From a virus: a stretch of DNA of 56,722 bases. The DNA lies in the IMG/VR virus record IMGVR_UViG_3300042558_002627, positions 1-56,722 of that record, one strand, 5' to 3'. Both the position numbers and the translations under genes were made by a program. Below, piece by piece: positions 3,013-49,012 of this stretch. The notes below the pieces were generated by a model that did not search any database, was not told the DNA's origin, and saw only the letters and a program-made list of their open reading frames with translations. Each line of letters begins with the position of its first letter. The stretch's first letter is position 1.

Positions 3013-3044
3013 TTAACAATAATAATAATTAAAACTTAAAAACA

Positions 3045-4322: not shown

Positions 4323-4336
4323 TTCTCCAACCCTCA

Positions 4337-4386
4337 GTAGCCTGCCACGAAATTTTGCTGTCGAGTGGTGGGCTACTATATTTTTT
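4337..4386 (+). terminator. Rho-independent terminator ending the capsid module
   Basis: GTAGCCTGCCAC (4337-4348) pairs with GTGGTGGGCTAC (4365-4376) in a 12-bp stem with two wobble pairs, followed by TATATTTTTTT. It lies 14 nt after the stop of the 425-aa structural gene and just before a promoter-like box. Confidence 0.85.
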
Positions 4387-29670: not shown

Positions 29671-32600
29671 ATGGCAAAAAAACAAGTTCCTGTAGTAGTA
29701 CCTACTAGTCCACGACACGACATGATCCAAAAAATTGTGGATCAAAAAGTGGATAAGACTTTAGGGTTTAATCAAGAAGTAGTTGATAAATTAGGTGTAG
29801 GAGAATCAGGGGAATACTCAGGACTTCAAAAAATCTATAAACAAAAGAATGCTGATATTTTTGATCCTTATGAGGATTATGTAGATAGAGGGACTTTACA
29901 TGGAGGACAATTTTCCATGGAAGAGTTGGGAAAAATTCGTGCAGAAAATCAATCTAATTGGGAACAAGCAAGACATGCTGTAGGCAGAGTAGCGGTTAAT
30001 ATAGTTCCTCAAATTATTGGAGGACTTTCCTCAATGGTTGATGTACCTGGTTATTTTAGCGCAGAAGAAGCTGCTAATAATCAATTAGTTAATTGGGCAC
30101 AAGATCTTAAAAAAGAAGTAGACAACGATTGGTTTCCTATTTATGAAGAAAACCCTGGACAATCTATGAATTTATCAGATCCTGCTTGGTGGATGTCTCG
30201 TGGTTCTGGATTAGTAGAATCCATAGGATCATTTGCTGTAACAGGTATGGTTGGAGGTAAAATTGCGTCTACTGTACTAGGAGGAGTAGGAAAACTTACT
30301 AGAGGTAAAGATTTAGCTCGTGCTGTTCTTGGAGCAAATAAGTCACAAAGATTATTAGGAGGAGCAGAAGCACTTACTAATGCTACCATGATGAATCAAG
30401 CTGAAGCAACTATTTCAGCAACTCAAGTATTTAATGATACTTATAAAGCACGTTTAGCTCAAGGATGGGATGCTCCTAAAGCTAAGCAAGCAGCGGCTGA
30501 AGCTGCTGCTACAACAATGAATATCAATAAAATTAATATTCTTTTAAATCTTTCATCTGCTGCTGCATTCCTTAAACCTATACAAGGAGGAAGTAGAAAT
30601 TTAGTAAAGCTTACTTCAGGTTTAGGAAAAATTACTGAACTAGCAAAAGAAGGAGGACAAGAAAGTCTTGAAGAACTTATCAATTTAGTTGCAGAAAAAG
30701 CTGGTACAGCTAAAGGTAGAGGAGAAAAGTATACAATGAAAAATGCCCTAGAAGATATGGGCAGCATGGAAGGTTTTGAAGCAGCTTTTCTTGGAGCTCT
30801 TGGGGGTATAGGTCAAAAAGGAATTATTAATGCTACTGAGTATTCTAAATACGGTGCAGGAAATACTAAAGATGCAGAAGGAAATCGTATTAGTAAAGTA
30901 GAGTACGAAAGAGGACAATATGCTAAACAACAAGAAGTAATTAATGAACTTAAAGAAAAAGGAGTTAATGTTACTGATGTAATGAAAAATTTCAAGGACA
31001 ATTTATTGTTCCAAGAAAAATTAACGGAAGCTGAAGAAAAAGGAGACCAAGCTGAAGTAGATAAATTAAAAGAAGAGTTGTTTGAAAATCAAGCAATTAA
31101 AGCTTTTCAATCTGGTACTACCGAAGTATTAGAAAATTTATACAGAGCAGAAGCTGAAAGAAATCCAGAAGAAGTGGGGCAGGATCATATTGATCGAGCT
31201 AACGACGCTTTAGTTCAGCTTAAACAATTAGAATCTATTTACAATAACTTTGAAGGATATGAAAATGTAGATGAAATATTCTTCAACCGTGCTAATAAAA
31301 GTAGAGCAGATCGTAATCTTAAATATGTTGAGGGATTAAAAAAAGAAAGTGATTTTCAATTAAGTAAAGACCTTCATTCAATTGCTAAAAAATATTCATA
31401 CGAAAGAGAACGTCCTATTCTTATTAAAGAAAATGGAGAAGTAGTAAGAACGGAAATAGCGACTGATACAATTCCTCTTTCATATTCTATGTCTAATCTT
31501 GATGAAAATCAAGGACATACAGAAGCTGAGCAAAAAATTTATGATAAGTTTTTAGCAGAAGTTAAAGCATTACCATCTTATAAAAACTCTACAAGTTACG
31601 GAGAAACAGTAGACAAGATGCAGAACTTAGTTACTACTGCTGATCAAGAGTTTGCTGAAATTACTAGTAAAAAATATCAAATTACATTTGCTGAGAAAAA
31701 AGCAAAAGAAGCAGAGAAAAAAGCTGCTTTTGAAGCAATTAGCAGAAGTACTTCAATGGCTGAAGTAGAAAAACTTCGTGATGCTTTTGACGATCCTATG
31801 TTAAAGAAAGCTGCAGAGAATAAATTAGCAGATTTAAAAAAAGCTAATGACATTGCAGCTAAGCAAAAGCAAACAACTTTTGTAGTACAAACATTTAATG
31901 ACAAGATTAAGAATGCAACCAAAGATCAATTAGAACAGTTGCGTACAGAAATTGAAGAGGCAGAGTTATCTCAGAATCATAAGACAGATTTAAATCTAGC
32001 TTTAGATAAAAAGATACGTGCACTAAATGGTGAAGAAACAGAAGAAGATCTAGCAGAGGATGCAGAAGAAGATAATCCTTTAGCAGATGTAGATTCTCGA
32101 ACTCCAGAAGAAATTGCGGCTGAGGTGGAAAAAGAAAACGCTAGTTTTGACACTACTCTTCCTAAAGATTTACCAAATCCAAATACAGAAAAACAAGATG
32201 TAGAAGGAGAAGTAGGAGAAGCTGCTGTTAATTTAGCTCAAGAAGATAAAACATTAGTTATCGGCGAAGATGCAGAAGGTAACTTAATTTATAGCTATGA
32301 TAGAAGTTCAGAAGGATATAATCGTGCTGCGTATTTATCTAAAGAGTTCAATCAAAAAGAAGTTCTTGGAATTGTTTATCGTAGTGACATAGACAATACT
32401 GTAGATAATTTAGAATTATTAGATCCAGATTACTTAAATGCGGGAGCAGAACTAAACCTACAGGTTGATTCTGAGTACGCAGGAGAAAAATATGATCCTA
32501 CTTCTAATACCCGAGAAAAAATTTCTTGGTCAATGCGAGAAATAGAATTACAAAAACAAGCTGATGCTCAAGGAATTCTATTAACAAGTTTACCTGAATA

Positions 32601-35600
32601 CATCGCTGAGGTTCCTATTAAAGTAACTGATAAAGACGGTAATACAGTATTCTATGTACACGACAATGCATGGTATAGAGCAGAAAACTTAAATGCTACT
32701 GCTGAAGAAATTGTTGAAGATAAAGCTCGTAACTTTAAAATCCGCGAGACTATTGTCAAAAAAAATGAACCAGTTAAATCTAAAGTACAATACAAAAGCT
32801 TTGGTAAATTATTTAAAACTTTTGACGGAGAATCTCTTCCTGTTTCTATAACAATGCCTGATTCTAAGTTAATTTTAGCAGTCGGACGTGACGGTGCATT
32901 TGAATTACCTGGTAATGCTAACAAACTATTAAATGGCGGAACTATTTTAAATAGCCCAGTATCTGAAGGTAGATTATATGCTATCGTCAAAGTAGGCCCT
33001 AAAGATTACATGCCAATTCCTTTAGAAAGAAAACCTATTTCTAAAGAAGTTATTAATACAGTAATGTTTGCAATAGAAGCGCATTTGACTGGTGATCAAG
33101 AAAATCCTATAGTAAAAGCTATTAGAGAATCTTCATTAAGTTTAGACATTACTACTACTTCAGGTTTAGCAGAATATTTAAATCAATTTATTTACCTATT
33201 TCCTACTCAAGGACCTGCAGGTTTAGAAAATTATTTACTTCGTGGGGGAGGCCAAAATACATTAAAATCTAATATGCCTTTGATCAGTGTTACTGCAACA
33301 GGAATCGAATTCGGTCGTCCTGGTGTTAACATGGGATCTTATGTAGATAAGAACGGTAATAAAGTTACTAAGTGTGCTATTACAGTTTCTGCTAACTTTA
33401 AATCTAAAGGTGGGCAAGCTACTAATCAAGCAGGTTTAGATAAACTACGTGCACTATTAGAAGATCCTAGATATACTCCTCTTGCAAATGCAAGTAGAAA
33501 AGATCTAGCTAAAAACGCAGATTCAATAATTATTTTAGATGCAGAAGGAAATACTAATACAGTAAAATATCCAGACTTAGTAAAAAATTCTCATCAAACA
33601 AATATCTTATCGATAAATATTGGTACTGAGGAAGAACCTAAGTGGGCTTATACTATCCAGCCTACTATTCTTTTTGATACTGCATTTGCTGGTATAAAAC
33701 CTACTAAGAAAAAAGCAGCTGCTACTCCAAAGATTAATAAAGTTACTCCTGCACAAAAATCTTCTTTAAGATATAAAGGAGTAAACCCTACTGTAGATGT
33801 AATTGTTACTAAGATAATTAACGGTGAGCCTCATGTTTTAATTATCAAAAGAGGAGCCAATGCAAAATCTGAACCTAATAAATTAGCATTTCCTGGAGGA
33901 TTCCACGACACTACTGCAAAAGCAGGTAATAAATGGAAACCTGGTAAAGAGACTGCAGAAGAAGCAGCAATGCGAGAAGTTAAAGAAGAAACTGGTTTAG
34001 ATCTAGAAGGACTTCCTTTAGAACAAGTAGGAGTATTCGATGATAGAACTAGAGACCCTAGAAATTCTAACACTTCTTGGATATCTTCTACTGTATACAA
34101 AGTCACTATCCCTGAAGATTTTTCTGGATCTACTGAAGTATCTGGACAAGATGATGCTCAAGATGCTAGATGGATTCCTGTATCAGAATTAAGTGCTACA
34201 GATAAATCTGAATTTGGATTTGATCATGCTGATATTTTAGAAAGTGAAGGATTAATTTTTACAACTACTGACCTTGAAGCAGAAAAAAAATCTAAAGTAT
34301 CTACCCTAAGAGCAGAAGAGCAAGCAGAATTAACTAAGGCTATCCCTAACATAGATGAGTATAAGGTTGATGGTGAGATAGATAAGGAATCTATGCCAGC
34401 GGATGTTAGAGCTAAGTATAATAAAATTTATGACAAGTACGATAAATTAATAGCCCCATTACTTCCTAAAAAACCTACTGCTGAACAAGAAGTAGAAGAA
34501 CTTACAGGAGAAGCATTGATTGAGGCTTATGCCCAAGATATTGCAAAAGGAATTGAAGATAAAAGTCAAATTGAACAATACCTTGAAAATTTAAAAGAAG
34601 GATTAGTTCCTGAAGCAGATGCTGTAGATATGGGATTTAATTCTTTACCAGAAGCAATTGCCTCTTTTGAGAAAGCATTAGAAATTTTTAATAAGAATGA
34701 AGCTGACTCTAAAACTATTACTTTACCAAGTGGATTAAAAGTTACAGTAAATAAAAATACTAAAGACTCTAATCCAATAGGAGAAGATAGTGTTGATGAG
34801 TTAATGACTGCGCTAGATGAAGATCAATTAAAAGAGCAACGTGATGAAATAGATCAAATGCTTATTAGAGGATTAGATACACAAACTCAATCATCTTTAA
34901 TTGCTTATTTGTCTTCAGATATTATTCAAGCAACTCTTAGTGCTAAAGAAGTAGGCGGACTTAAAAGTGTAAAAGTTAAACCTATATTAGACAAGCATTT
35001 AGAATCATTAAAAGAATTATCTAAGTTTTATAAAGAACAAGGATTAGATAATAAAGCAGCACGTCTAGATGCAGTCATTGATCAATTCGATAAAGTTAGA
35101 AGATTAGTAAATCAAAACATGAGTCTTTTATCTACAGGAACTGTAAAAGAGGATATCGAATTAGATGCTAATGAAGATGCGGGAGGATTAGTACGCAACA
35201 ACTATACAGATGATTGGGCATTTACAGTGAATCCTAAATCTACTACTTCAGAAGATTTGAAAAAATTCTTCAGTATGATTCAAGCGCAAGATGAAAATGG
35301 GCCTATAGTTAACTTACTAGGACTCCCAGAAATTCTTCCGTATGATACTGTATATAATACTTTAAAAGGACTTTTATCAAACAAGCCTGCAGACTACGAC
35401 TTAATGATTAAGATTCTAGAATTAAATACAGAGAAATTCCCTTGGATTAACTCTGTAATAGATCTTTTAGAAAAAAGTAATACTCCTGATAAAATTAAAA
35501 ATGAGTTTGTTTCAGGAATGGTGGGCCATAATATTCACATGCAGTTTGTTATGTGGAGTAAAGATCGTAATGGAAACTACTCTTTACAAAAATGGTCTAG

Positions 35601-38277
35601 TAACTCTTCAGCAGTAGAAGAAAGACTACGTGCTATATGGAATTCTAACTTAAAAGGTGTAGGTACTAGAAGTAATTTGATTACAATAAACGAAGATGAT
35701 GAATACATTTTTGATAAGACTGTAGGTAATACACTAATTGCACAAGCAGCAGAATTTGCTAAAAACCCAGAAGCAGTAACTAACGAAGAATTAGCTAATT
35801 GGTTAGGACTTTTTGGAATTGTAATCAGTGATAAAACTTACGAAGATTTACGTAAAGGTAAGTTTAATAATAAGGGTCGTAAAAGTTGGAATGCATTATT
35901 CACTGGTGGAAAAGGTTTAGTTAAAGCATTAGCTAGAACTTTAGATGCAACACTACAAGGAGAAGTATCTTTTGATGATGCTAAGATTCTAACAGATTCT
36001 GTAGTAAAAGCATTGGCTAAATTAGAAGCTAGCAATAACCTAAGTGTTTATAGCAACTCTTTCCAAGCAGGTGGAAAAACTGTGTACTCTTACGGAAATA
36101 ATAATTTCCTTGTAAATAGAATGCGCGATCTTACAGCATACAATAATGAAACAGGGACATTTGTTAATCAAGATTTGATCGATAAATTACAAAATATTTC
36201 CTTTAGTAAAAATAGTAGTTGGCTTCAAGATCTAACCGAAGATGGGGCATTGGGTGATACAATGCGTAATACTTTCAGAATAAACTATTTATCCCTAGAA
36301 GCGCTTAAAAAAGCATTTACTAAATCTCAAGATAACAGAAAGCTAAATAACTTAACTGCTGCAGAGCACGAAGTAATTAAAATTGCTTTCTTCCAAAATG
36401 TTTCTGGAGATACTCTTAATGGAGAAGATAGAAGAGCTGTAGACTTCTTTTATCCTACTATGTCTGATAAGACTACTATGTTGACTATCAGCGCTTTAAC
36501 TCGACAATTAGTTTTAAGTGATGGAGAAATTTCGGATAAAAATCTAGAAACATTATACGATACAATTGTTGTTCCAGAAATAAACAGAATTCGAGATAAG
36601 CAATCTGATAACATTAAAGGATACGAACCTAACTATTTCTATTTCTTCCACAGCCTTAATTCTTTAATGGTTCCTATGGGAATAGACGTTAATGGAAATG
36701 TTACTGAGAAATCATTCCTAGATATTGTTAAAGATAAAGACAATACTTTATATTCTCCTGAAGTTAAGCAGGCAGTAATGGAAGAAATCAAAAGTATTTT
36801 TGATGGATTACTAGAAAAGAAATTAGAAGACTGGGGTAAACTAGGAATTGGATTAAAGCTTACAGATAAAAATAATAGAGTAACTGATAACTATACTTTC
36901 TTAGATAAGGAGTATATGTCTAAAGTAGCTAAAGTAGGTAAAGGAGTTGACAAGGTTAGTTACGCAGCAATGGATTATTTATTCAATAATTTAATTGCCA
37001 ATGCTGAAGCTTATAAATTATTTGCTGGAGATCCTGCTTTATATGCAAAGTTTAATAGCAAGAAAAGCTTAGAACAAAACCTAGAAGAAACTTTTACTAA
37101 TATTGGTAAACGTCTTGCTGGAGATATTGCACCAGGTATGGAATTAGCAGACAGTGCTAATAATAATTACTATCAAGTATTTATGCAGGATAAAAAGATT
37201 GATAGTAATAATGTAAAAGACACTGCTCAAAAAGAATACTTTAGTAAAATCATGAGTAAGTTTGGAGAAAACTACTCTGGAATAGAAGGTTCCGATGCTC
37301 AGGAATATACTACTTGGAAAGAGCACTTATATGTAATGCAGCAATTAGGTCGATTGACTAAAGCTCAATATGATAAAATTTATAAACAATTAGAAGGACA
37401 GTCTAAAGGAGATTTTAGAAAATCTAATATACTTTCTTATGATGATATAAATATTGTCATGCAGCCTTTAAAACCTGTATATGTAGGCAACACTGCTTCT
37501 ATAGAAGATAATGCAGACCGTAGAGTTTATATTAAGTCTTCTAGTTTTCCACTACTTCCCCAATTAACTTTAGGAATGCAAATAAATAAAATTCGTAAGG
37601 GATTAGAAGCATTTGAAGAAGAAATGTCGGGTACTACTAAAGATGGTAAACCTGCATTTGTTAGAGCTTCTTTTGGAACTGCAAATAAAGTAGGGGCTGT
37701 TAAAAATGCTGTAGAAGTTTTTGATAATAATGGTAATGTTGTTGATAACTTTAAAGTAAGCCTAGATAATACGCTATTACTTTCTAGATCAAACTTCAGA
37801 ATTCAGCAAGATGTTCCTTACAAACGTGAAAAAGATGCTGTAAATATTGGAACACAAGAACGTAAGCTATTATTTGTAAATACATTAGATCTAGAAATTG
37901 AACCAGGTGTTAAAGGTCAAGATTTAATGGATCTTTATAATCAAAACTATCAAGATTTATACGAATATGCTTACGAAGAGTTATCTAAGAAACTTGGTCT
38001 AGTTAAAGAAATAACTAGTACAAAAGACTTAACATCATTGTTAGCGATGCCATCTTCAGATATTTTTGAAAGAACTTCTGAATTAGAAAAGCAACTTAAA
38101 AGCGTTAGTCCTATTAAGAAAGCAGAACTGCAACAAGATTTTGCAGAGGAAATAGGGGATGATAACTTAGAAAGAGTTAACTTTATAAACAAAAATTTCG
38201 ACAATATAGTTGAAGCATTGATGTCATCAGACATGGCAATCTTCAAAGACGAAAATAATGAATTCAAAAAATGTTAA
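29671..38277 (+). CDS. Virion RNA polymerase, N-terminal half (first double-psi barrel) with Nudix domain
   Basis: A 2868-aa protein. Residues about 105-215 include hydrophobic, Gly-rich stretches (VGRVAVNIVPQIIGG; GSFAVTGMVGGKIAS) that could insert in the host membrane during ejection. Residues about 280-800 are long charged coiled coils. About 1370-1520 is a Nudix hydrolase domain: FPGGF, then G1425-K-E1427, R1435-E1436 and E1439-E1440-x-G1442 of the Nudix box. Near the C-terminus, YIKSSSFPLLPQLTLGMQIN (K2622) and ASFGTANKVGA (K2673) look like the first double-psi beta-barrel of QDE-1-like crAss polymerases. The catalytic Asp barrel is missing here and lies in the 2057-aa protein downstream. 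Probably packaged and ejected to transcribe early genes. Confidence 0.7.
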   Translation: MAKKQVPVVVPTSPRHDMIQKIVDQKVDKTLGFNQEVVDKLGVGESGEYSGLQKIYKQKNADIFDPYEDYVDRGTLHGGQFSMEELGKIRAENQSNWEQARHAVGRVAVNIVPQIIGGLSSMVDVPGYFSAEEAANNQLVNWAQDLKKEVDNDWFPIYEENPGQSMNLSDPAWWMSRGSGLVESIGSFAVTGMVGGKIASTVLGGVGKLTRGKDLARAVLGANKSQRLLGGAEALTNATMMNQAEATISATQVFNDTYKARLAQGWDAPKAKQAAAEAAATTMNINKINILLNLSSAAAFLKPIQGGSRNLVKLTSGLGKITELAKEGGQESLEELINLVAEKAGTAKGRGEKYTMKNALEDMGSMEGFEAAFLGALGGIGQKGIINATEYSKYGAGNTKDAEGNRISKVEYERGQYAKQQEVINELKEKGVNVTDVMKNFKDNLLFQEKLTEAEEKGDQAEVDKLKEELFENQAIKAFQSGTTEVLENLYRAEAERNPEEVGQDHIDRANDALVQLKQLESIYNNFEGYENVDEIFFNRANKSRADRNLKYVEGLKKESDFQLSKDLHSIAKKYSYERERPILIKENGEVVRTEIATDTIPLSYSMSNLDENQGHTEAEQKIYDKFLAEVKALPSYKNSTSYGETVDKMQNLVTTADQEFAEITSKKYQITFAEKKAKEAEKKAAFEAISRSTSMAEVEKLRDAFDDPMLKKAAENKLADLKKANDIAAKQKQTTFVVQTFNDKIKNATKDQLEQLRTEIEEAELSQNHKTDLNLALDKKIRALNGEETEEDLAEDAEEDNPLADVDSRTPEEIAAEVEKENASFDTTLPKDLPNPNTEKQDVEGEVGEAAVNLAQEDKTLVIGEDAEGNLIYSYDRSSEGYNRAAYLSKEFNQKEVLGIVYRSDIDNTVDNLELLDPDYLNAGAELNLQVDSEYAGEKYDPTSNTREKISWSMREIELQKQADAQGILLTSLPEYIAEVPIKVTDKDGNTVFYVHDNAWYRAENLNATAEEIVEDKARNFKIRETIVKKNEPVKSKVQYKSFGKLFKTFDGESLPVSITMPDSKLILAVGRDGAFELPGNANKLLNGGTILNSPVSEGRLYAIVKVGPKDYMPIPLERKPISKEVINTVMFAIEAHLTGDQENPIVKAIRESSLSLDITTTSGLAEYLNQFIYLFPTQGPAGLENYLLRGGGQNTLKSNMPLISVTATGIEFGRPGVNMGSYVDKNGNKVTKCAITVSANFKSKGGQATNQAGLDKLRALLEDPRYTPLANASRKDLAKNADSIIILDAEGNTNTVKYPDLVKNSHQTNILSINIGTEEEPKWAYTIQPTILFDTAFAGIKPTKKKAAATPKINKVTPAQKSSLRYKGVNPTVDVIVTKIINGEPHVLIIKRGANAKSEPNKLAFPGGFHDTTAKAGNKWKPGKETAEEAAMREVKEETGLDLEGLPLEQVGVFDDRTRDPRNSNTSWISSTVYKVTIPEDFSGSTEVSGQDDAQDARWIPVSELSATDKSEFGFDHADILESEGLIFTTTDLEAEKKSKVSTLRAEEQAELTKAIPNIDEYKVDGEIDKESMPADVRAKYNKIYDKYDKLIAPLLPKKPTAEQEVEELTGEALIEAYAQDIAKGIEDKSQIEQYLENLKEGLVPEADAVDMGFNSLPEAIASFEKALEIFNKNEADSKTITLPSGLKVTVNKNTKDSNPIGEDSVDELMTALDEDQLKEQRDEIDQMLIRGLDTQTQSSLIAYLSSDIIQATLSAKEVGGLKSVKVKPILDKHLESLKELSKFYKEQGLDNKAARLDAVIDQFDKVRRLVNQNMSLLSTGTVKEDIELDANEDAGGLVRNNYTDDWAFTVNPKSTTSEDLKKFFSMIQAQDENGPIVNLLGLPEILPYDTVYNTLKGLLSNKPADYDLMIKILELNTEKFPWINSVIDLLEKSNTPDKIKNEFVSGMVGHNIHMQFVMWSKDRNGNYSLQKWSSNSSAVEERLRAIWNSNLKGVGTRSNLITINEDDEYIFDKTVGNTLIAQAAEFAKNPEAVTNEELANWLGLFGIVISDKTYEDLRKGKFNNKGRKSWNALFTGGKGLVKALARTLDATLQGEVSFDDAKILTDSVVKALAKLEASNNLSVYSNSFQAGGKTVYSYGNNNFLVNRMRDLTAYNNETGTFVNQDLIDKLQNISFSKNSSWLQDLTEDGALGDTMRNTFRINYLSLEALKKAFTKSQDNRKLNNLTAAEHEVIKIAFFQNVSGDTLNGEDRRAVDFFYPTMSDKTTMLTISALTRQLVLSDGEISDKNLETLYDTIVVPEINRIRDKQSDNIKGYEPNYFYFFHSLNSLMVPMGIDVNGNVTEKSFLDIVKDKDNTLYSPEVKQAVMEEIKSIFDGLLEKKLEDWGKLGIGLKLTDKNNRVTDNYTFLDKEYMSKVAKVGKGVDKVSYAAMDYLFNNLIANAEAYKLFAGDPALYAKFNSKKSLEQNLEETFTNIGKRLAGDIAPGMELADSANNNYYQVFMQDKKIDSNNVKDTAQKEYFSKIMSKFGENYSGIEGSDAQEYTTWKEHLYVMQQLGRLTKAQYDKIYKQLEGQSKGDFRKSNILSYDDINIVMQPLKPVYVGNTASIEDNADRRVYIKSSSFPLLPQLTLGMQINKIRKGLEAFEEEMSGTTKDGKPAFVRASFGTANKVGAVKNAVEVFDNNGNVVDNFKVSLDNTLLLSRSNFRIQQDVPYKREKDAVNIGTQERKLLFVNTLDLEIEPGVKGQDLMDLYNQNYQDLYEYAYEELSKKLGLVKEITSTKDLTSLLAMPSSDIFERTSELEKQLKSVSPIKKAELQQDFAEEIGDDNLERVNFINKNFDNIVEALMSSDMAIFKDENNEFKKC

Positions 38278-38768
38278 TAATGGAAAAATTACTTACAGAA
38301 AACGAGATTAAATTTCTCAATATGTTCGGTAAATTAGAGTTGACTGCGTCACATGTGTATCAGCACCTTACTAATCGAATGAAGACTTTAGGTTACTTCG
38401 GCGCAGAAAAATTCTTTTTATCAGAATCTTTAGACGAAAGAAAGCATTACAATACAATAGAACAATTTATGAACGACATGAATTGTGAGCTTTCTGTAGA
38501 GTCTTTAGACCCTGTAACTAGCTCTGTAGCTGGTATTGGAGACGCTTTAGATATGGCTTACAAAATGGAAGCGGATCTTTTAGCAGCTTATGAAAAAGTA
38601 GCCAATTCCGAAATATCAAGAAAAACGTTAATTTTGCTTCAAGACTTTATTATGATACAAGTATCAGCAGTAGGGGAATATGGAGATTTAATTAACCGTT
38701 TAAAACTTACTGATAACATGTTGCTGTTTGATGCAGATATGTTAGAAAGAAGTGAGAACGAAGGATAA
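38271..38768 (+). CDS. Ferritin-like diiron protein inserted between polymerase halves
   Basis: 165 codons (162 from the second ATG at 38280) that start inside the end of the 2868-aa gene. Four-helix pattern. Glu23, Glu56, His59, Glu100 and Glu136 occur at the spacings of the E. coli FtnA diiron ligands E17, E50, H53, E94 and E130 as I recall them, a constant offset of 6, and FtnA is also about 165 aa. FtnA Gln127 corresponds to Ala133. An ELTASHVYQHL first helix and an EYGDLINRLKL final helix support the fold. It would oxidise and perhaps store iron. It sits exactly where the polymerase chain is split. A Dps-like or diiron-oxidase role is an alternative. Confidence 0.7.
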   Translation: MLIMEKLLTENEIKFLNMFGKLELTASHVYQHLTNRMKTLGYFGAEKFFLSESLDERKHYNTIEQFMNDMNCELSVESLDPVTSSVAGIGDALDMAYKMEADLLAAYEKVANSEISRKTLILLQDFIMIQVSAVGEYGDLINRLKLTDNMLLFDADMLERSENEG

Positions 38769-38782
38769 TAAAAAACAACAAC

Positions 38783-41700
38783 ATGTCAAATTGTAAGTAT
38801 TTTGTCAATGGTGATTGGGTAACTGAGAACCAATTAAAAGAGCTTTTGAATGCTGGGCTATTAGATAATTTAGTTTCTAATGGAACTGTAGAAGTAAAAG
38901 GCTTTAAAGTAGACAGCTCTAAGTTGCTTAAAGCAGAAACTACTAAAGTTACTAGTGATAATATTCCTGCAGTAACATTGGCAAACATATTAGCAAATGA
39001 GATTAAAAGCCGACAAGGCTATACTCTTAACATGTTGTCCGCATTAGAATTAACTAATCCTACTGCAGAAGAAAGAGCTAATGGGGTAGAACCAGATTTC
39101 AAAATTCCTTTATGGGCATCGCCGTATGCAAATAAATTTGAAAGTTTACTTACATCTTTAGTAAGTAACAAAATAGTTAAGCAAAAATTCCCAGGAAATT
39201 CTTACATCTTAGGTTCAGAAGAAGGGTTCCGAGTTAAAGAAGGGGACGAAGCAGCAGGAGAATTAGGAAAATCTAACATCGTATTTACTTCTAACTTTGA
39301 TCCAGAAAAAGGATTACAGCCAATGCGTTGGGATTTCGAAAATAAAAAGATTCTTCCTGCGCAAATAATGATTCCATTTAAATTCCGCGACGAATCAGGA
39401 GAAATTCTTTCTTTGAAAGATTTTACTACACTAGAAGAGGGAGGAAGAATGGTATTAGATACTACCAAAATTCCAGACAAATTACTTCAACTATTTGGCT
39501 TCCGTATTCCTACACAAGAGCGTAACTCTATGGCCGCTGTAGAAATAGTAGGCTTCTTACCTGAAGCATCAGGAGATCTTGTCTTAGCGCCAAGAGATTT
39601 TACTAAGCAAATGGGATCCGATTTTGACGTTGATAAATTGTACACATATATGTACAATCATTTCTACGATAATAAAACTGGGAAACTACATACCAACTTT
39701 GTTTCTGATAAAAAGAAAATCAAAAGTTTCATAGAAATTACAAAACAAAGTATTGAGGATATAAAAGAAGAATTTAAACTTTCTAAAGAGCAGAAGAAAA
39801 TTTTAAATGCTTACATCCAAGAGGCTAATGTTAGTTTAACAGATCAAGATTATTCAGAAAGACGTTCTAAAGGTGAGGAAACAGAATCTGAATTATCTAG
39901 AATGGCTGCAGAAATTTTAAATTTCTCACTTAAAGGAGAACTAAAAGAAAAGTTAGACTACAATATCAATCAACTATCGATATTAAGTAGATCTTACAAA
40001 GCTTCTCGACAAAATAATATCTTAGATATTCACCATAGAATTATGACCTCTTCTAATCCTGAGATCATATCTTCTATTATGGCCCTAGATTCCTTTGGAG
40101 AATTTGAAAAATTAGCTAAGGATATCAACACCTTAAGAAATACTGACGGCGCAATTCCAATTATTCTTTCTGACGTCTATCAAAGAACTAAATATATTAA
40201 TGCAACTGCAGGTAAAAATGGTGTAGGATCTTTCTCACTAGATTCTACGTTTAATGCAACTGCACAAGGTAAACAACTTACTATACAAAATTTATCTGCA
40301 GAAAATAAAGAATTATTATTTGGTACTGTTCAAGAACCTAGAACTCCTACAGCAGCAGAAATTTTAGAAGCTAATGACCCTATTGCTACTTTTGGAAATG
40401 TAGTTTCTAAAGGAGATTTATCTAATAAATATACTCTTCGTTCTCAAGCAATTATTAATCTTGCTAAAGCAGAAAAAAGAGAATTAACAGATAAAGAAAA
40501 AGAATCTTTAAAATACAAATCTACTATCATACGAGCTCTTCAATCAACGGCAGTGGATAATGAGAAAGCACAGATCCTTGATAAATTAAATATCAATGAT
40601 GAAACTTTTGATGCTATCCGTGCAATGGCCCTATTAGGGTTTGAAGAATCAGAAATAGTAGGATTAATAACTCAAGATATTATCTGGGAGTTTATTGATA
40701 AATTGAAAGACGCGCGATCTTCCTTGACTTCTTATAATGCAAATGCAAGTGCAGATATATTCCAAGAATTAATTGCTAAGTACGATCCTAGTAAATCCTA
40801 CGCCGCACTTGATGCTGATAGAATAGATTCTTATTCTGCTAAATCTGGAGTAGAGCTTATTGCTAATATTGGAAATAAAACTCTTGTGCCTCTTAAAGAA
40901 GGTACTACTCCTGATTTTCATCTAGAGCAACTAGCATTATTAGATAAATTCTTAAAGTTAACAGCTACAGGAAAAGACATCAAAGTATTGCAGTCTTCTA
41001 TTAATACTGAGTCTAGCGGTATTCCTAAATCATTATTGGAGACAAAAACTAAAGTAGAACAAATAGAACGTTTGCCTTACTTAAACATTTTCAATGCCGA
41101 TAAATTATTAGGTGAATACGAGGTAACAGGATTAAGTAATCCTACTACTATTAATGGATACGCTGCGTATTACGGAGCAATGTTTGCTAATAAAATATAC
41201 GATAAGTATTTCCCATATAAACAAACAGGGTTTAATGCGGTAGTAGGAGAGATTATGTCTCATACTCCAAAAGGAGATACTATAAGTTTACCTAAAAAGA
41301 CTACACTTCAGCAAGAGATTTTTGATCAAGTAAAATCTTATCTGTATTCGAATACTAATACTAATTTATTTGGAGATAATCCTGATATAGAAAGACATAG
41401 ATTATTCATTGATACTAAACAAAATAAAAGTTTAGCATCTATTTTAAATGAACTATCTAATACAACTTGGTTCCAAAAAAATGGATTCTTGAATAAACTT
41501 TCGTTTGACATCAATAAAAATGGTACTATTTCTAGAATTAACTTTGAAGCAGCAGCTGGAGAAAATCTAGATGAAAGAAATATCTATGATGGATTTAATT
41601 ACTTGCTTAGTAAAAACTTTGCAATTGGAAACTACAACGGTATAGATTATACTAGTCGTATTTTAGCACAAGAGCTTGTTGCAGCAGCTTTCTTAGAAGG

Positions 41701-44700
41701 AGGAAATCAAGGTGCTAAACAATATTTAAAATACGTTCCTGTAGCTTATTTAAAATCATTAGGATTTGGTGAATATTTACAAGGAATTCCTTTTGATTTC
41801 CAAGAAACTTTCTTTGGAAATATAGTAGAAGAAACTGTTATTTATAATCAACCGTCTACTTTTACTCGTCAATATTTTCAAAATAACCCTGATCTAGTTA
41901 AAACAATAAACTTATCAGACATAGAAAATAATAACAATAAAATTCCTGATTCTTTTACTTTAAATAAAGAAGCATTAGCAGATAATTTTGTAGATACTAT
42001 TGACCCTGCAACAGGAGAAGCTACAAAAGAACAAGTACATTTCCTATCTATTTACGATAGTAAGTTACCTTCTAACTATGCATTATACGAATTTGACAGT
42101 GTGTCTCGTGTATATCGTAAAATTTCTGTTTTATCAGGTAGTTACGGATTTGTTGGGTATAACTCACAGTCTAAAAATAGCATGCCTACTGAGATTAAGA
42201 ATTTATCTACAGCAGCCCCAGTAGAACAAGGAGCACCTGGATATACAATAAATAATATTCCAGTAACTCCTTCTAAAAAATTCGACCTCAATGTAGTTAA
42301 TAATCCTACTACTCCTACAACTACTGCAGGATTACCTATCAACAGAAAATTATCTGGTACTAAAGAAGCTTTAGATGATTTATTAAATAATCTAGAAACT
42401 TCTAATGAAGTGTCTACTTTAAATACGCAGTTAATTCAATTGATTCGTACTTTAGAATTACCTCAAAACTTCAAAGTTGTATATGATGATACTTTAGAGT
42501 CTAGAGGTAATTATAATTCCGAAGAATCAGTTCAAACTTTGACTATAAATTTAAAAGATCCTAACAATAAAAAAGTAAATGATTTAGCTACAGCAGTTGT
42601 ACATGAGCTTATACATACGTTTACCGCTGATAGTATTCAAAAGTATGAAGATGGAGACTTGGATAAATTGTCTGCTAAAACTATTGCAATTATACAGCAA
42701 TTAGAGTCTTTACAAAAATTATATATTGATGAGCTAGTAGCTAAAGAAGGACCAGAAGGATTAAAAATATTTGAGAAAAAATATTTTGATTGGAAAGCAG
42801 GATTAGCAGATGCTCCTAAAGTATCCAAAGAACAAATAGCTAAATACTACGGAGCTATTAAGTTGACAGAGTTTGTTACAATGGCTTTAACTGATGCAGA
42901 ATTTCAAAAGCATTTAAATGATATTACTGATGAAACAGGTTTATCAATGTGGGAGCAATTAAAAGAGTTGCTATCTGACTTATTAAATGCATTAGGACTT
43001 GATATTAAACCTGGATCTGCTTTAGCAACTGCTATTAAAGATAGTATGGATTTAATTAAAGCTAATCAAGATGCTTTAAAAGAAAACAATATTGAAACTA
43101 AGCAATTTATAGAGTTTGGTAATACTTATAGATTCCAAGTAGATGGTAACGGTAAAGTAATTAAAGCAGAATATGCTCAAGGTAACGGTGTTTACAAAGC
43201 GATGAACGCTAAAAATAGCCAAAAGAAATATGACGAATTAAAAAATAAACCTGAAATACAAAAAACAGCAGAAGCTAAAATTACTGAAGATACTATTAAT
43301 AAATACGAATTATTCCCAGGAGTATTTGCAAATGCTGGGCAAACTGAAGCTATTGATAAATTAAATGACTTCTTAAAATCAGACGAAAAAGCTTTCTTAT
43401 TAGAAGGTAAAGGAGGAACAGGTAAAACTACTATTATCAAACAAGTAATTGCAAGTTCTGCAATTAGTGGTAAAAAAGTATTAGCAATTGCTCCATCGCA
43501 TAAAGCTAAAAAAGTATTAGCTAGATCTTTAAAAGATTTAGATGTTACTGTTAAAACATTGGCTTCTGCTTTAGCAATTAAACTTGATGAAAGCACAGGT
43601 AAATTTGAACCTGATGAATATGCTAGAAAAAAAGGAAATGTTCCTATTGGAAATGGGCAAATTATAGTTATTGACGAAAGCTCTATGGTATCTGATGCAT
43701 TATTAGCAGAGATTAAACAGTGGGTATCCGCAGGAGCTAAGGTAATCTTTATGGGTGACCGCGCACAATTACCTCCAGTAGGACAAGAAAAAGACAGTGA
43801 TGTTTTTGGATTAAAAAATCGATACGAGTTAACTGAAAAAATGCGTCAAGCAGCAACTTCTCCAATTATAAATATTGGAAGCAAGATTGCAGCAAACGCA
43901 GAAAACGATACTAACAGAGTAGCTAATCCTATTACATCTTTAGACCGTGTTAATAGTACAGATGTTGTAAGTGGCTCATCAATTACTTGGGAAAGTTCAG
44001 AAAGCGCTGCGTTAGATCAATTTGTAGAAGATTTGCAAAAAGCTGAAGGCGATGTAAACTTTGCTAAAATAGTAACGTTTAACAATCAAAACCATAAGAG
44101 CCCTCAAAGTGTTAAAAATCTTAATACTAAAGTTCGTCTTAAATTATTTGGAGAACGTGCATTAGGAGAAAAATTTATTCCTGGAGAAATTTTAACAGCT
44201 TATGATTCTTACAATCCTACACAAGGAAAAGAAGAAATAGATATAGTATTCTTTAATAGTGAGGATATGATTGTTGAAGCAGTTAAGACTATACAAGGCC
44301 GCCCAGTGACAGTAGAAGTATTTTCAGGAGCAAAGGGAAGACGCTCTGCATCTTTCAATTTTGATGTAGAAATGCTTACTTTACAAAATGATGAAGGCAA
44401 AACTATAACTAAATTTGGTAGTCCTGTAGAAATTCCTGTAATTGCAGAGTCTAGTAAAGAAGAATACTCAGCAGTTTTGAATAAATTATGGTCAACTGAT
44501 CGACAAATGGCTTATGCATTGCAAGCTAAATTTGGAAATTTAGAATATGGATACGCAATAACTTCTCACAAAGCTCAGGGCTCTACTTATACTAATGTTT
44601 ACGTGATGGAAGATAACATCATGGGGCCAAGTAACGGTGGTAGCATCAAAGCTAAGAGTCAATCATTATACGTAGCAGTCTCTCGCCCTACTACTAAATT

Positions 44701-44956
44701 AGTAATGGTATCTAGTAAAAATGACGAAGCTCCTATAAAAAGAACAGGCTTAGATTTATCTAAACTTTCTGGTAAATTAGAAGATTACCAAACTTTCCCA
44801 ACATCAAGTTACGGAGAAGAAGAAGATAGAATGAGTAATCGTCCTAGCCAGGATGATTATGAAGCTTATCAAAGAATGATGGGAGACGAGCTATTATCAG
44901 AATCTCCGATTAATAGTGATAACTTGAGAAATTATTTGTTAATTTGTGGTAAATAA
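38783..44956 (+). CDS. Virion RNA polymerase catalytic half with zincin-like peptidase and SF1 helicase domains
   Basis: A 2057-aa protein. Residues about 240-290 hold the second double-psi barrel: GFRIPTQERNSMAAVEIVGF leading to MGSDFDVDKLY, where Asp280, Asp282 and Asp284 are the magnesium-binding residues of the DxDxD loop, as in the phi14:2 virion polymerase and cellular beta' subunits. Residues about 1240-1380 form a zincin-like peptidase domain: H1274-E-L-I-H1278 and a likely third ligand, Glu1363, in LTEFVTMALTDAEFQ. Residues about 1520-1990 form a Dda/RecD-like SF1 helicase: GKGGTGKTT (1542-1550), VIDESSM (D1631-E1632), GDRAQLPPVG, SHKAQGSTY and VAVSRPTTK. It needs the barrel of the upstream 2868-aa protein to complete the active site. 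The fusion suggests a packaged transcription and DNA-entry machine. Confidence 0.75.
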   Translation: MSNCKYFVNGDWVTENQLKELLNAGLLDNLVSNGTVEVKGFKVDSSKLLKAETTKVTSDNIPAVTLANILANEIKSRQGYTLNMLSALELTNPTAEERANGVEPDFKIPLWASPYANKFESLLTSLVSNKIVKQKFPGNSYILGSEEGFRVKEGDEAAGELGKSNIVFTSNFDPEKGLQPMRWDFENKKILPAQIMIPFKFRDESGEILSLKDFTTLEEGGRMVLDTTKIPDKLLQLFGFRIPTQERNSMAAVEIVGFLPEASGDLVLAPRDFTKQMGSDFDVDKLYTYMYNHFYDNKTGKLHTNFVSDKKKIKSFIEITKQSIEDIKEEFKLSKEQKKILNAYIQEANVSLTDQDYSERRSKGEETESELSRMAAEILNFSLKGELKEKLDYNINQLSILSRSYKASRQNNILDIHHRIMTSSNPEIISSIMALDSFGEFEKLAKDINTLRNTDGAIPIILSDVYQRTKYINATAGKNGVGSFSLDSTFNATAQGKQLTIQNLSAENKELLFGTVQEPRTPTAAEILEANDPIATFGNVVSKGDLSNKYTLRSQAIINLAKAEKRELTDKEKESLKYKSTIIRALQSTAVDNEKAQILDKLNINDETFDAIRAMALLGFEESEIVGLITQDIIWEFIDKLKDARSSLTSYNANASADIFQELIAKYDPSKSYAALDADRIDSYSAKSGVELIANIGNKTLVPLKEGTTPDFHLEQLALLDKFLKLTATGKDIKVLQSSINTESSGIPKSLLETKTKVEQIERLPYLNIFNADKLLGEYEVTGLSNPTTINGYAAYYGAMFANKIYDKYFPYKQTGFNAVVGEIMSHTPKGDTISLPKKTTLQQEIFDQVKSYLYSNTNTNLFGDNPDIERHRLFIDTKQNKSLASILNELSNTTWFQKNGFLNKLSFDINKNGTISRINFEAAAGENLDERNIYDGFNYLLSKNFAIGNYNGIDYTSRILAQELVAAAFLEGGNQGAKQYLKYVPVAYLKSLGFGEYLQGIPFDFQETFFGNIVEETVIYNQPSTFTRQYFQNNPDLVKTINLSDIENNNNKIPDSFTLNKEALADNFVDTIDPATGEATKEQVHFLSIYDSKLPSNYALYEFDSVSRVYRKISVLSGSYGFVGYNSQSKNSMPTEIKNLSTAAPVEQGAPGYTINNIPVTPSKKFDLNVVNNPTTPTTTAGLPINRKLSGTKEALDDLLNNLETSNEVSTLNTQLIQLIRTLELPQNFKVVYDDTLESRGNYNSEESVQTLTINLKDPNNKKVNDLATAVVHELIHTFTADSIQKYEDGDLDKLSAKTIAIIQQLESLQKLYIDELVAKEGPEGLKIFEKKYFDWKAGLADAPKVSKEQIAKYYGAIKLTEFVTMALTDAEFQKHLNDITDETGLSMWEQLKELLSDLLNALGLDIKPGSALATAIKDSMDLIKANQDALKENNIETKQFIEFGNTYRFQVDGNGKVIKAEYAQGNGVYKAMNAKNSQKKYDELKNKPEIQKTAEAKITEDTINKYELFPGVFANAGQTEAIDKLNDFLKSDEKAFLLEGKGGTGKTTIIKQVIASSAISGKKVLAIAPSHKAKKVLARSLKDLDVTVKTLASALAIKLDESTGKFEPDEYARKKGNVPIGNGQIIVIDESSMVSDALLAEIKQWVSAGAKVIFMGDRAQLPPVGQEKDSDVFGLKNRYELTEKMRQAATSPIINIGSKIAANAENDTNRVANPITSLDRVNSTDVVSGSSITWESSESAALDQFVEDLQKAEGDVNFAKIVTFNNQNHKSPQSVKNLNTKVRLKLFGERALGEKFIPGEILTAYDSYNPTQGKEEIDIVFFNSEDMIVEAVKTIQGRPVTVEVFSGAKGRRSASFNFDVEMLTLQNDEGKTITKFGSPVEIPVIAESSKEEYSAVLNKLWSTDRQMAYALQAKFGNLEYGYAITSHKAQGSTYTNVYVMEDNIMGPSNGGSIKAKSQSLYVAVSRPTTKLVMVSSKNDEAPIKRTGLDLSKLSGKLEDYQTFPTSSYGEEEDRMSNRPSQDDYEAYQRMMGDELLSESPINSDNLRNYLLICGK

Positions 44957-44962
44957 AGAAGT

Positions 44963-47900
44963 ATGTCAATAGCATGTCCTAATAAGAATTCTAAAGAGTG
45001 GAAAACTCTTGTAAAGCAGACAGGAGAACAGTTAGCAAATCTGGCTTTTGTATCAAATGAATATAGAATTCCCGATGTAAAAAGTTCTACAGAAATTAAA
45101 AAGGCTATCAAGTTCCAATCTAAAGTGGAAAATTTTGCAGGAGTAGCTTCAAGACTAAGAAAGTATAACCAACAAAACGGTACTTCTCATTACTTTACTT
45201 TTAAAAATGTTTGGGGTAATACTTTTGAACTTACTTTAAAGTACAATTATTTACCAGTCAATTTAGAAAAACAAAGACAGAGAGAAGCGGCTAAAGGGGA
45301 CCCTTTATATGCTATTAACGATTTTGATGCACCTGCTTTTAATTACATGTACCCAGGAAGTAGTAGCCAGATTAGACCTAGCTCTAACATTGATGAATTA
45401 ATTCCTGGTGCAGAGACTCAAGTAATTGCTGTAGAAAAATTAAGAAAAGACAAAATAAATACAGCAATAATTAAGCAGCGTCAAGAACTAGCTAATGTAA
45501 AAGATGCTGTAGAAATGCGATCTATTCTCAATAAAATTGAGAGTTTAGTTAAAAGTTTAGAAGGGACTGAATCAATTAGAGGTGCTCAAGAACGGCTACT
45601 ATTAGCGGGTGAAATTAAAGCATTTGAAGAAGTAGAAATTTTTGGAAATTTGCAATTAAAAGAAATTGAGAAATTATTAAATAATCCTGCAATTAGCGCA
45701 GACGATGTTTATTATGCTCAACGTATTATAGATCTTTGGTTAAAAGCTGGAGATTTTTCTACAGACCCTCGTGAACATATTTTCTTAGATGAAGATGAGT
45801 TTAATACTAAGGAAATTCGTTCTAAGTTTAGAGCTCTTGCTGCTACAGCACAAGATCTTCAAAGTAAACTTATTCCTATTCGAGAAGAACATACTACAAA
45901 TTTTGTAAGACAATACACTGATGGCAAATTAACTCAAGAAGAAATCTTTAAGAATATTCGTGATGTCAATAAAGTTGCTGCTATGACCTTAAATTTAAGT
46001 CGTCACGGTGACGCAATGTTACAAGCAGGTTTTGCTGCGGTAGAGGCTGCTAATATTTCCGCACAGCAAGAAGCATCTGAAGTGTGGAAAGAACTAGATG
46101 AACTTACTACAAAATTCTTAAAAAAATCAGGGGGTAATTTTAATATCTTAAAGCAGTTGACTGAAGATGGAAAAGAAACAGGAAGAACTGTTACTCGTTT
46201 TTCTTCAGAATTTTTTGAAACACGTAATTTATTATTAAAAAGAGCCTTTAAAACTGTTGATGCAAAAACTAAAAAAGTTACTAAGAATGCTGAGGCAGTC
46301 AAAACTTTTTTTAATTGGACTAATACTAATACTATTTCTTTTGATCCTAGAATCTTAATAGAAGATAGTCTATTAGATAATAGTATTATGCCAGAAAGTT
46401 TCTTATACAAAAGAGTTACTTATGATGAAGGTAGTCGCCAAAAACATATTGAAGAATTAAAGAAGCATTTAGGAGAAAAAGGATATGAATTCTATATTGA
46501 ACGTGCAAAAGAAAAAATAGAACAATTTAAACTTAGACGTGATGCTGCTTATGAAAGTATGCATTCTAAAAGTGAATTATCTAAAGTCGAGCAAGATGCT
46601 TTATTTGAAAATTGGTTAAGAGAATATTCTCCTTATTGGTCTATGGATATGATGGAAAATCCTACTTCTCGACAAAAAGGAAAAGATTCTTTCTATTCTC
46701 CAAAAGGAATGCGTGAATACATTATTCAAGTTCCTAGAAAATTTACTGCTGAAGGAAATACAAAATGGTACGATAAGAACTACGCTAAGATTGAGGCAGA
46801 TGATGATTTATATGCGTACCATAATTATATGATGAAGACTTTAAATAGCCTTCGTTATATGTTGCCAGAGCAAAAAAGAGCTTTAATGGGAGTAGGTGTA
46901 TTGCCTACTATTCAAAAAAGTTTAATGGACACATTCCAAGAAAAAGGAATGATGATGGGTGTTATTCCTTTTTGGGATAAAATGAAGCAACTTCAAACTA
47001 CTACGGATTTAGCTACAACAGTTTATTCTGATGTAAATCCTTTAACAGGTAGTATTGAAAAGAACATTCAAATTCAATATGTAGAAGATAATCAAGCTAG
47101 AGTAAAAACTTTAGTACGTCAAATGCAAATTAAGCATGAGCAAGAGACAGGAAAACCTGCTACAAATGAGGATAATATTAGATTTACTAAAGAAACCAAA
47201 GATTTTTTATCAAAAGAAAAATCTTGGGATGTTACTAAAATCTTAAAAGCATACTCTTTAAATATTCTTGCATATAAACACAAGTCTTTTATCGAGCCTC
47301 AAATTAAATTACTTGAGCAGGAATTAAAAGCTCGTAAAGAAATAGTAACAAATAAAGCGGGTCAAGCTCAAGTAGATGAATACGGTAAACCTTTAGAAAG
47401 AGAGGGCTTAAATAATCTAAAATCTGCTTGGGATTTCTTTATGGATTCTACTTTTTATGGAGTAGGAGGTCGTAAAGTAGAAGGAGTTACTAAGACTAAA
47501 CTCTATACAGATGCCGAAAAAAAACGTAAAAAAGAGTTAGAAGCTCTTTTAGAAAAGGAAACTGACGAAGAAAGTAAACAATTTTTACAAGGACAAATAG
47601 ATTCTTTAGGAGGATTTAGAACAATAAGTGGTGTAGGTGATACAGCACTTAAATACATGACTCTTAAAGGATTAGGATGGAACTTTTTCTCAGCCTTTTC
47701 CAATATAGGATTTGGTACTATTTCCAATTTAATCCAAGCATCTGATGGTCGAGAATACTCAATGGCAGATATGCGAAGAGCATATATATTAACTTTAAAC
47801 TCAGTTGGAAGAAATTTAAGTTTTAATTACTTAGACGGAGTAAATAGTAATGCCTTAAAAATTAGAACATTAATGGATAAATGGGATTTACTACAAACTT

Positions 47901-49012
47901 CTAACAAGGAGTTGTACGACATGTCCCAAAAATCATCAATGTCTAAATTAAAAAGATTTGGGCCATTTAGTTTGCAAGAACGTTCTGAATATTTAAATAT
48001 TGCTCCCGTAATGATAGCAACTATGCTATCAAAAAAACCAGATAATTCTCCTCAGTTTCCTGCTATAGGTCCTGATGGAGAAGTAGTTACTATATGGGAT
48101 GCATATGATATTTCAACAGGAAAATTAAAAGAAGGTTTTACTTCTGAAGTAGATGAAGTCAAACTTGTGCAAAAAATTAGAAGAATAGTAGAAATGAATC
48201 ATGGGGATTACAATAATGCCCTACAAGTAAAATCTACTATTAGTGGAAGATTATTAAGTCAATTCCGTACATGGATGTTTGAAGGATTTGCTAATAGATT
48301 TCAAGCAGCAGATCCTGATTACGGATTAAGCTATGGATTAGATGAAACTTACATTCGAAAAGGACGTTATCGCAGTTACACTAAAGGCCAGTTACTTACT
48401 ACTGGTGCAGCAGTTGGAACTATGTTTTTACCAGGTGTTGGAACCGCTCTAGGAGCAGGAATCGGTTATCTGGGCGGTAAATTTTTTGGCATGCAGACTG
48501 ACGAAAGTGTTTTAGGGGATACTTTATATACTTTAAAACAATTAGCTCGCAAATTGATGTTCCAAAAAACTCAATTTGGGGATAAGTTTACAGCAGTTGA
48601 TGCCGCTAACATGCGCAAAAATATGACGGAGCTTTACTTAATGATGGGTCTTATGGGAATAGCTTTATTCCTTAAAGGATTAGCGGGAGACGATGATGAT
48701 GAAGAACAAGTTGTAACTAATTTCCTTCTTAATCAAACTATCCGACTTCAAACAGATATCGGGTTCTATACTAATCCATTAGAAGCAGAAAAATTAACTA
48801 AAACTGCTGTTCCAATGGCTGCATTAGTAGACGATGTTAGAACTCTTTTTGTAGATATTGGGGGGCATCTTAATGATGAAAAAGGTGACGAAGTATTTGA
48901 AAGCGGACCGTTCAAAGGAAACAGTAAATTCCTTACACATTTAGGAGAAGCAATTCCTGGAACATCACAAGGAATTCGATTATACCGTACAGGACAACAA
49001 GTTATGGACTAA
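44963..49012 (+). CDS. Large cargo protein of the virion polymerase module
   Basis: A 1349-aa protein, the last gene of the virion block, 6 nt after the catalytic polymerase gene. Mostly helical and charged. Near the C-terminus a Gly/Ala-zipper hydrophobic stretch (about 1148-1172, GAAVGTMFLPGVGTALGAGI) and a second one (about 1222-1240, LYLMMGLMGIALFLKGL, followed by DDDDEE) could span or disturb a membrane. Such segments are found in proteins ejected by phages to extend the tail across the envelope. No enzyme motif is seen. Probably co-packaged with the polymerase. Confidence 0.5.
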   Translation: MSIACPNKNSKEWKTLVKQTGEQLANLAFVSNEYRIPDVKSSTEIKKAIKFQSKVENFAGVASRLRKYNQQNGTSHYFTFKNVWGNTFELTLKYNYLPVNLEKQRQREAAKGDPLYAINDFDAPAFNYMYPGSSSQIRPSSNIDELIPGAETQVIAVEKLRKDKINTAIIKQRQELANVKDAVEMRSILNKIESLVKSLEGTESIRGAQERLLLAGEIKAFEEVEIFGNLQLKEIEKLLNNPAISADDVYYAQRIIDLWLKAGDFSTDPREHIFLDEDEFNTKEIRSKFRALAATAQDLQSKLIPIREEHTTNFVRQYTDGKLTQEEIFKNIRDVNKVAAMTLNLSRHGDAMLQAGFAAVEAANISAQQEASEVWKELDELTTKFLKKSGGNFNILKQLTEDGKETGRTVTRFSSEFFETRNLLLKRAFKTVDAKTKKVTKNAEAVKTFFNWTNTNTISFDPRILIEDSLLDNSIMPESFLYKRVTYDEGSRQKHIEELKKHLGEKGYEFYIERAKEKIEQFKLRRDAAYESMHSKSELSKVEQDALFENWLREYSPYWSMDMMENPTSRQKGKDSFYSPKGMREYIIQVPRKFTAEGNTKWYDKNYAKIEADDDLYAYHNYMMKTLNSLRYMLPEQKRALMGVGVLPTIQKSLMDTFQEKGMMMGVIPFWDKMKQLQTTTDLATTVYSDVNPLTGSIEKNIQIQYVEDNQARVKTLVRQMQIKHEQETGKPATNEDNIRFTKETKDFLSKEKSWDVTKILKAYSLNILAYKHKSFIEPQIKLLEQELKARKEIVTNKAGQAQVDEYGKPLEREGLNNLKSAWDFFMDSTFYGVGGRKVEGVTKTKLYTDAEKKRKKELEALLEKETDEESKQFLQGQIDSLGGFRTISGVGDTALKYMTLKGLGWNFFSAFSNIGFGTISNLIQASDGREYSMADMRRAYILTLNSVGRNLSFNYLDGVNSNALKIRTLMDKWDLLQTSNKELYDMSQKSSMSKLKRFGPFSLQERSEYLNIAPVMIATMLSKKPDNSPQFPAIGPDGEVVTIWDAYDISTGKLKEGFTSEVDEVKLVQKIRRIVEMNHGDYNNALQVKSTISGRLLSQFRTWMFEGFANRFQAADPDYGLSYGLDETYIRKGRYRSYTKGQLLTTGAAVGTMFLPGVGTALGAGIGYLGGKFFGMQTDESVLGDTLYTLKQLARKLMFQKTQFGDKFTAVDAANMRKNMTELYLMMGLMGIALFLKGLAGDDDDEEQVVTNFLLNQTIRLQTDIGFYTNPLEAEKLTKTAVPMAALVDDVRTLFVDIGGHLNDEKGDEVFESGPFKGNSKFLTHLGEAIPGTSQGIRLYRTGQQVMD

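Follow-up and report, generated by a model that had tools for sequence, protein, structure and literature searches.

The closest described relatives of the gene discussed here are the bacterial FTN ferritins, represented by E. coli FtnA and the Thermotoga and Vibrio proteins, and the animal H-type ferritins. The gene lies in IMG/VR virus record IMGVR_UViG_3300042558_002627, a crAss-like phage whose 56,722 nucleotides were analysed as a whole (the window), and encodes a complete FTN-type ferritin between two giant open reading frames (ORFs) that correspond to a split virion RNA polymerase-type protein. The window ferritin shares its fold, length, helix E, and the FtnA ligands E17, E50, H53, E94, and Q127 with bacterial FTN proteins. 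Unlike them, it is phage-borne, sits in virion gene modules, and E130 and the third-site residues are mostly missing. It resembles animal H-type ferritins in having the Gln without an FtnA-type Glu130, which is replaced by Ala, and in the helix D pattern QVxA(V/I)xE(Y/L)GD. However, identity to the animal proteins is only ~20%, the C-terminus is shorter, and the home of the gene is a tailed phage.

Other ferritin-like proteins have been described in phages or linked to phage-like shells. The Dps and Mn-catalase genes of Gratiaviridae are also phage-carried members of the ferritin superfamily, but they belong to other families (PMC8008677). The Dps-like gene of Lactobacillus plantarum phages is from another family too and is found close to replication genes instead of at a polymerase or portal junction (PMC6669764). 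In the Kuttervirus Sajous1, gp217 has been called a virion ferritin by Phyre2 (PMC10892097). Encapsulin and its encapsulated ferritin (EncFtn) may offer an analogy, a ferritin-like protein linked to an HK97-type shell, which for the phage protein is an idea. The EncFtn subunit has two main helices (PMC5012862), and EncFtn carries loading recognition sequences, whereas the window protein is modelled as a full ferritin with five helices and has no recognised loading sequence. PHROG 16594, a phage family without an assigned function, is related to three of the phage ferritins collected here (L034, L041, and L052), which match it at E 4e-10 to 4e-8; the window protein does so only at E 0.015. Phage ferritins were known before as scattered annotations (BFVD matches), and the literature searched yielded no conserved H-type family linked to virion-cargo junctions. 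The family described here has over 120 members, in which the iron site does not vary; its genes are found again and again beside those for virion-internal proteins and are traded between phages as a cassette at the polymerase junction. The long-discussed link between phages and iron thereby becomes testable in a defined gene.

The window protein matches the Pfam Ferritin hidden Markov model (HMM; PF00210) at E 2.4e-10, scoring 40.9 bits against a curated cut-off of 24.5. An AlphaFold2 model built from the window protein and 13 homologues has a predicted local distance difference test score of 90.6, with low confidence in the last residues. Its five helices (7-37, 40-66, 86-108, 114-144, and 149-160) form a four-helix bundle and a C-terminal helix E. 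The best PDB matches in Foldseek are FTN ferritins, with template modelling scores (by query) of 0.78-0.89, mostly at least 0.8. The top phmmer and profile matches are animal-type ferritins, and in the comparison with bacterioferritin the best matches are non-haem ferritins. Among the PDB sequence and fold matches listed, none is named Dps and all are classical ferritins. The earlier note, made from the letters of the window, had read the gene as a full-length ferritin of FtnA-like length; the profile score, the confident five-helix fold, and the PDB matches bear this out and do not point to another helical family.

The predicted diiron site differs from that of FtnA. E. coli FtnA was aligned to the phage family by profile alignment, with window residues counted from the ATG at 38280. 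The FtnA/window pairs are E17/E20, Y24/Y27, E50/E53, H53/H56, E94/E97, Q127/Q127, and E130/A130, an offset of +3 in helices A-C and 0 in helix D. E20, E53, H56, E97, and Q127 are invariant (124/124 phage ferritins), and position 130 is Ala or Ser in 118/124. Animal H ferritin has the ligands E27, E62, H65, E107, and Q141, and the predicted ferroxidase site of the phage family is likewise Glu/Glu/His/Glu plus Gln. Given the FtnA alignment and the confident fold, these residues would meet in space. Five FtnA-like ligands at a constant offset had been proposed, of which four stand. The fifth, Glu136 (Glu133 in the present numbering), is wrong because the offset falls to 0 in helix D; it pairs with FtnA Leu133, and no more than 80/124 phage ferritins have Glu there. 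The FtnA-like site thus gives way to a predicted H-type site, with Gln and without Glu130. The third-site residues E126 and E129 of FtnA are mostly missing across the phage ferritins, and the window protein has I126, S129, and A130, with D52 at the E49 position.

The ORF at 38271-38768 (165 aa; plus strand, as are the three giant ORFs, the tail and head modules, and the DFDVD motif below) is open, and its borders are as first described: it overlaps the upstream 2868-aa ORF, which ends at 38277, by 7 nt, and 14 nt separate its stop from the downstream 2057-aa ORF, which starts at 38783. The end at 38768 holds. The second ATG is probably the true start, since homologues begin with MEKLL at that point, and the gene would then span 38280-38768 (162 aa). 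The 9-nt extension up to the first ATG (38271-38279), which overlaps the end of the upstream ORF, probably reflects coupled translation. In most homologues, a stop/start overlap or a short gap lies between the ferritin and the upstream ORF.

IMG/VR scans yielded 13, 45, 80, and 74 loci, many of them shared, for a total of 123 distinct ferritins, among them that of the window, those of two bacterial-bin contigs, and that of one phage-collection record. Pairwise dN/dS (nonsynonymous to synonymous substitution rates) is 0.02-0.13 where computable, and the gene is under strong purifying selection. Since more than 120 related copies almost always adjoin genes for virus-head proteins, the ferritin is a genuine phage component under selection and no accidental insertion. 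The HMM score, the conserved site and position, and the dN/dS values exclude chance. The annotated phage genome collection holds almost no members, its only clear match being a 4.9-kb unverified record. In a scan with the phage profile, relatives in bacterial genomes were limited to two contigs, and in both the gene adjoins an ORF ending in a Cys tail like those of the phage giants. A recent host source was considered and rejected, as these two matches are probably viral DNA.

Between the window and L001, DNA identity is 82% over 38279-38755, which covers nothing beyond the ferritin gene, and the giants of the two are unrelated save short stretches that include a 44-aa N-terminal module. Likewise, L005 is 70-76% identical to L003, L004, L011, and L013 over the ferritin and parts of the tail and head modules of the flanking giants. 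The ferritin gene is therefore passed from one phage to another, among unrelated neighbours, and arrives at the same junction. On the ferritin tree, where the window stands next to L001 and L002, the context must change 17 times (52.9 if shuffled). Four ferritins (L236, L237, L248, and L253) form a separate FtnA-like bacterial clade that keeps Glu130 and directly follows a fused polymerase. This clade is possibly an independent acquisition; it is separate on a tree with two cellular sequences only.

The ferritin loci are repeatedly found beside head or cargo genes, as the earlier association with virion genes implied. About 87 of the 123 have a giant cargo ORF on either side. A portal-type gene precedes 22 (phrog portal HMM 1.9e-64 for the representative L041), a giant ORF precedes 3, and Portal_Mu and Mu-F genes precede 2. 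Four further ferritins, from the polymerase survey, directly follow a fused polymerase. In the window, the flanking ORFs jointly match a single fused virion RNA polymerase-type ORF, gp33 of Flavobacterium phage Fpv1 (4401 aa; 1.6e-111), so that the proposed polymerase split holds. The upstream giant (29671-38277; blastp 8e-86) corresponds to about the N-terminal two thirds of gp33 and the downstream giant (38783-44956) to the RNA polymerase half; the matched regions of gp33 are ~1974-2990 and ~2953-4376, respectively. Both halves also lie in one ORF in cr50_1 (4774 aa). A survey of 80 IMG/VR polymerase loci comprised 14 split polymerases, 61 fused to the upstream part, and 5 uninformative loci. 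The ferritin occupies the split point in 14/14 split polymerases versus 0/61 unsplit ones, four of which have a ferritin just past the stop (Fisher p 2e-15, without correction for relatedness). In L001-type phages, the ferritin splits nothing and stands at an ordinary junction between an upstream ORF like crAss001 gp47 and a downstream ORF like gp50.

The reading we favour, with a probability of roughly 0.5, is that a working ferritin is translated with the late cargo genes and sequesters iron during assembly. In crAss-like and other tailed phages, the ferritin would be translated together with late genes whose products are head-internal (cargo) proteins, and its cage would form inside the infected cell. 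The H-type diiron site would oxidise Fe(II), and the iron would then be stored. Fe(II) and peroxide would be kept from the new polymerase, its exposed terminal thiols, and the DNA while virions are built. Among the functions first offered, protection from iron or oxidation fits best. Several points weigh against this reading. A position beside head genes equally fits a packaged protein, and the Cys content discussed below bears only indirectly on packaging. The phage ferritin is without FtnA E126, E129, and E130, so its iron chemistry may differ from that of FtnA, and the phage collection yielded no cultured carrier.

The main rival reading, tenable although unlikely, is that the capsid contains the ferritin as a structural part, in an inverted encapsulin arrangement where it holds iron or guards the packaged DNA. 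In several lineages of phages, the neighbours of the ferritin are portal, Mu-F, or cargo genes, and ferritin-like domains give weak structural matches in phage proteins named 'prohead protease'. However, its Cys content is normal, unlike that of ejected cargo. In a survey of the loci, Cys per 1000 residues was 0.07 in upstream-giant interiors (140,692 residues), 0.19 in downstream giants, 9.2 in other neighbours, and 9.9 in the ferritins. Because it lacks the avoidance seen in ejected cargo, the ferritin is probably not ejected with it. Packaging is also opposed by the absence of a recognisable cargo-loading tail, the C-terminus aligning with the start of an ordinary helix E, and by size, as a 24-mer cage is too big for tail constrictions of <50 A (PMC10172136) unless dissociated. 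Nor was the published virion ferritin, Sajous1 gp217, found in the searched parts of its relative Vi01: an HMM search of ~150 of 157 kb (gap at 100-107 kb excluded) found no ferritin, and 0/5 Pfam-scanned genes at or beside the tail-completion gene match ferritin, Sajous1 itself not having been seen.

It is improbable that the gene is a general metabolic moron that buffers host iron, unlinked to assembly, and that its position only reflects a late junction that is tolerant and prone to recombination. The horizontal exchange seen there would agree with such a role, and ferritins and Dps are known as stress genes in other phages (PMC8008677; PMC6669764). Despite the 17 context changes, however, nearly all contexts are virion-internal genes.

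The giants also carry Cys at their facing ends, a pattern seen in the window (29671-49012), in L060, L061, L062, and L297, and in 91 flanking giants per side. Cys falls within the last six residues in 86/91 upstream giants (chance ~5%) and within the first nine in 87/91 downstream giants (chance ~8%). In the window, the upstream ORF has two Cys only, at 1235 and 2868 (the last residue), the downstream ORF only two, at 4 and 2055, and a third giant a single one at residue 5. The pattern recurs in phi14:2, where the sole Cys of gp078 (1797 aa) is its final residue, while gp077 (2180 aa) carries Cys at positions 3 and 2179 and gp076 at position 3. It also recurs in crAss001 gp47, gp50, and gp49, which form the same chain though on two strands, with one extra internal Cys in gp50. 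The exception is crAss002 gp33, whose seven Cys all lie away from its ends. The only Cys of Fpv1 gp33 (4401 aa) is residue 4400, and the fused site has none; both new ends created by the split at the ferritin bear the Cys that this fused form lacks. A fused polymerase ends without Cys in five loci, four of them those with a ferritin next to it, and all five are preceded by an ORF with a Cys tail.

The simplest reading of these sequences is that ejected proteins avoid Cys and that paired end cysteines mark each cargo junction. It can be proposed tentatively that the giant ejected proteins of crAss-like phages are coupled end to end by single cysteines at facing termini, perhaps through disulfides that the reducing cytoplasm of the host would open. 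Nothing relevant to cysteine-terminated cargo was found in the literature searched, which is not proof of novelty. The rule provides a cheap, concrete test of how multi-megadalton cargo is ordered and ejected through a narrow tail. In phage N4 (L299), no Cys occurs in the virion RNA polymerase (3500 aa) or in gp51 and gp52, encoded by the two genes that follow; Cys avoidance in ejected proteins may be general. Elsewhere in the window, a 275-aa ORF (4413-5240) has a cysteine-rich tail, SDCSGCGCGGC, and 12 Cys, unlike the Cys-free cargo proteins.

A direct part for the ferritin in thiol coupling is less likely than the coupling itself and seems improbable. The version in which it aids redox coupling of the giants, by controlling peroxide or iron where C- and N-terminal cysteines pair, is very doubtful. 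In ~87 loci, the ferritin falls precisely between one giant with a Cys tail and another with a Cys head, and ferritin, tail, and head modules recombine jointly between phages. However, the same Cys ends occur where no ferritin was found (Fpv1, crAss001, phi14:2, and cr50_1), and the ferritin also stands beside portal genes without Cys ends. Although the ferritin fills the gap of the split polymerase, the in-frame-neutral insertion and the polymerase regulator first offered can hardly be sustained: neutrality is ruled out by the split survey, the purifying selection, the invariant metal ligands, and the recurrent head- and cargo-gene neighbours, portal and Mu-F genes among them, and regulation is opposed by fused-polymerase phages mostly without ferritin, by carriers with the ferritin beside portal genes, and by L001-type junctions.

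The ends of the flanking giants form exchangeable modules. The C-terminal tail module of the upstream giant (38137-38274) comprises its last 46 aa and ends FKKC, as delimited by tail comparison and DNA matches; unrelated upstream giants of L005, L008, and L010 have tails that resemble it. The N-terminal head module of the downstream giant (38783-38917; ~45 aa, MSNCKYFVNGDWVTENQLKELL) is common to otherwise non-homologous giants such as that of L001, with 41% identity over 44 aa between the window and L001 and bodies that match only in short stretches. The upstream giant also contains a NUDIX hydrolase domain (33793-34203; Pfam NUDIX 8.9e-14), and the third giant cargo ORF, beginning MSIACPNK, encodes 1349 aa at 44963-49012.

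Giants homologous to these are virion components in cultured phages, as phi14:2 gp076-gp078 are annotated in their record as virion proteins by mass spectrometry, and crAss001 gp47, gp49, and gp50 were verified in the same way (PMC10172136). The profiles of giant clusters 0, 2, 11, 17, 24, and 41 gave no match to crAss references; one giant from such clusters matches the phrog virion RNA polymerase at 4e-15. The profile of the window's polymerase group matches cr50_1 and crAss001 gp50. Homology to Fpv1 gp33 and the alignment-conserved DFDVD (39620-39634), a DxDxD-type motif expected at the catalytic site, place the downstream giant among crAss-like virion RNA polymerases. A Dda-like superfamily 1 helicase domain (43100-44716; phrog_325, 1.3e-70) is fused into the C-terminal part of the same ORF, and between the polymerase region and the helicase lies HELIH (42602-42616), an HExxH zinc-peptidase-like motif.

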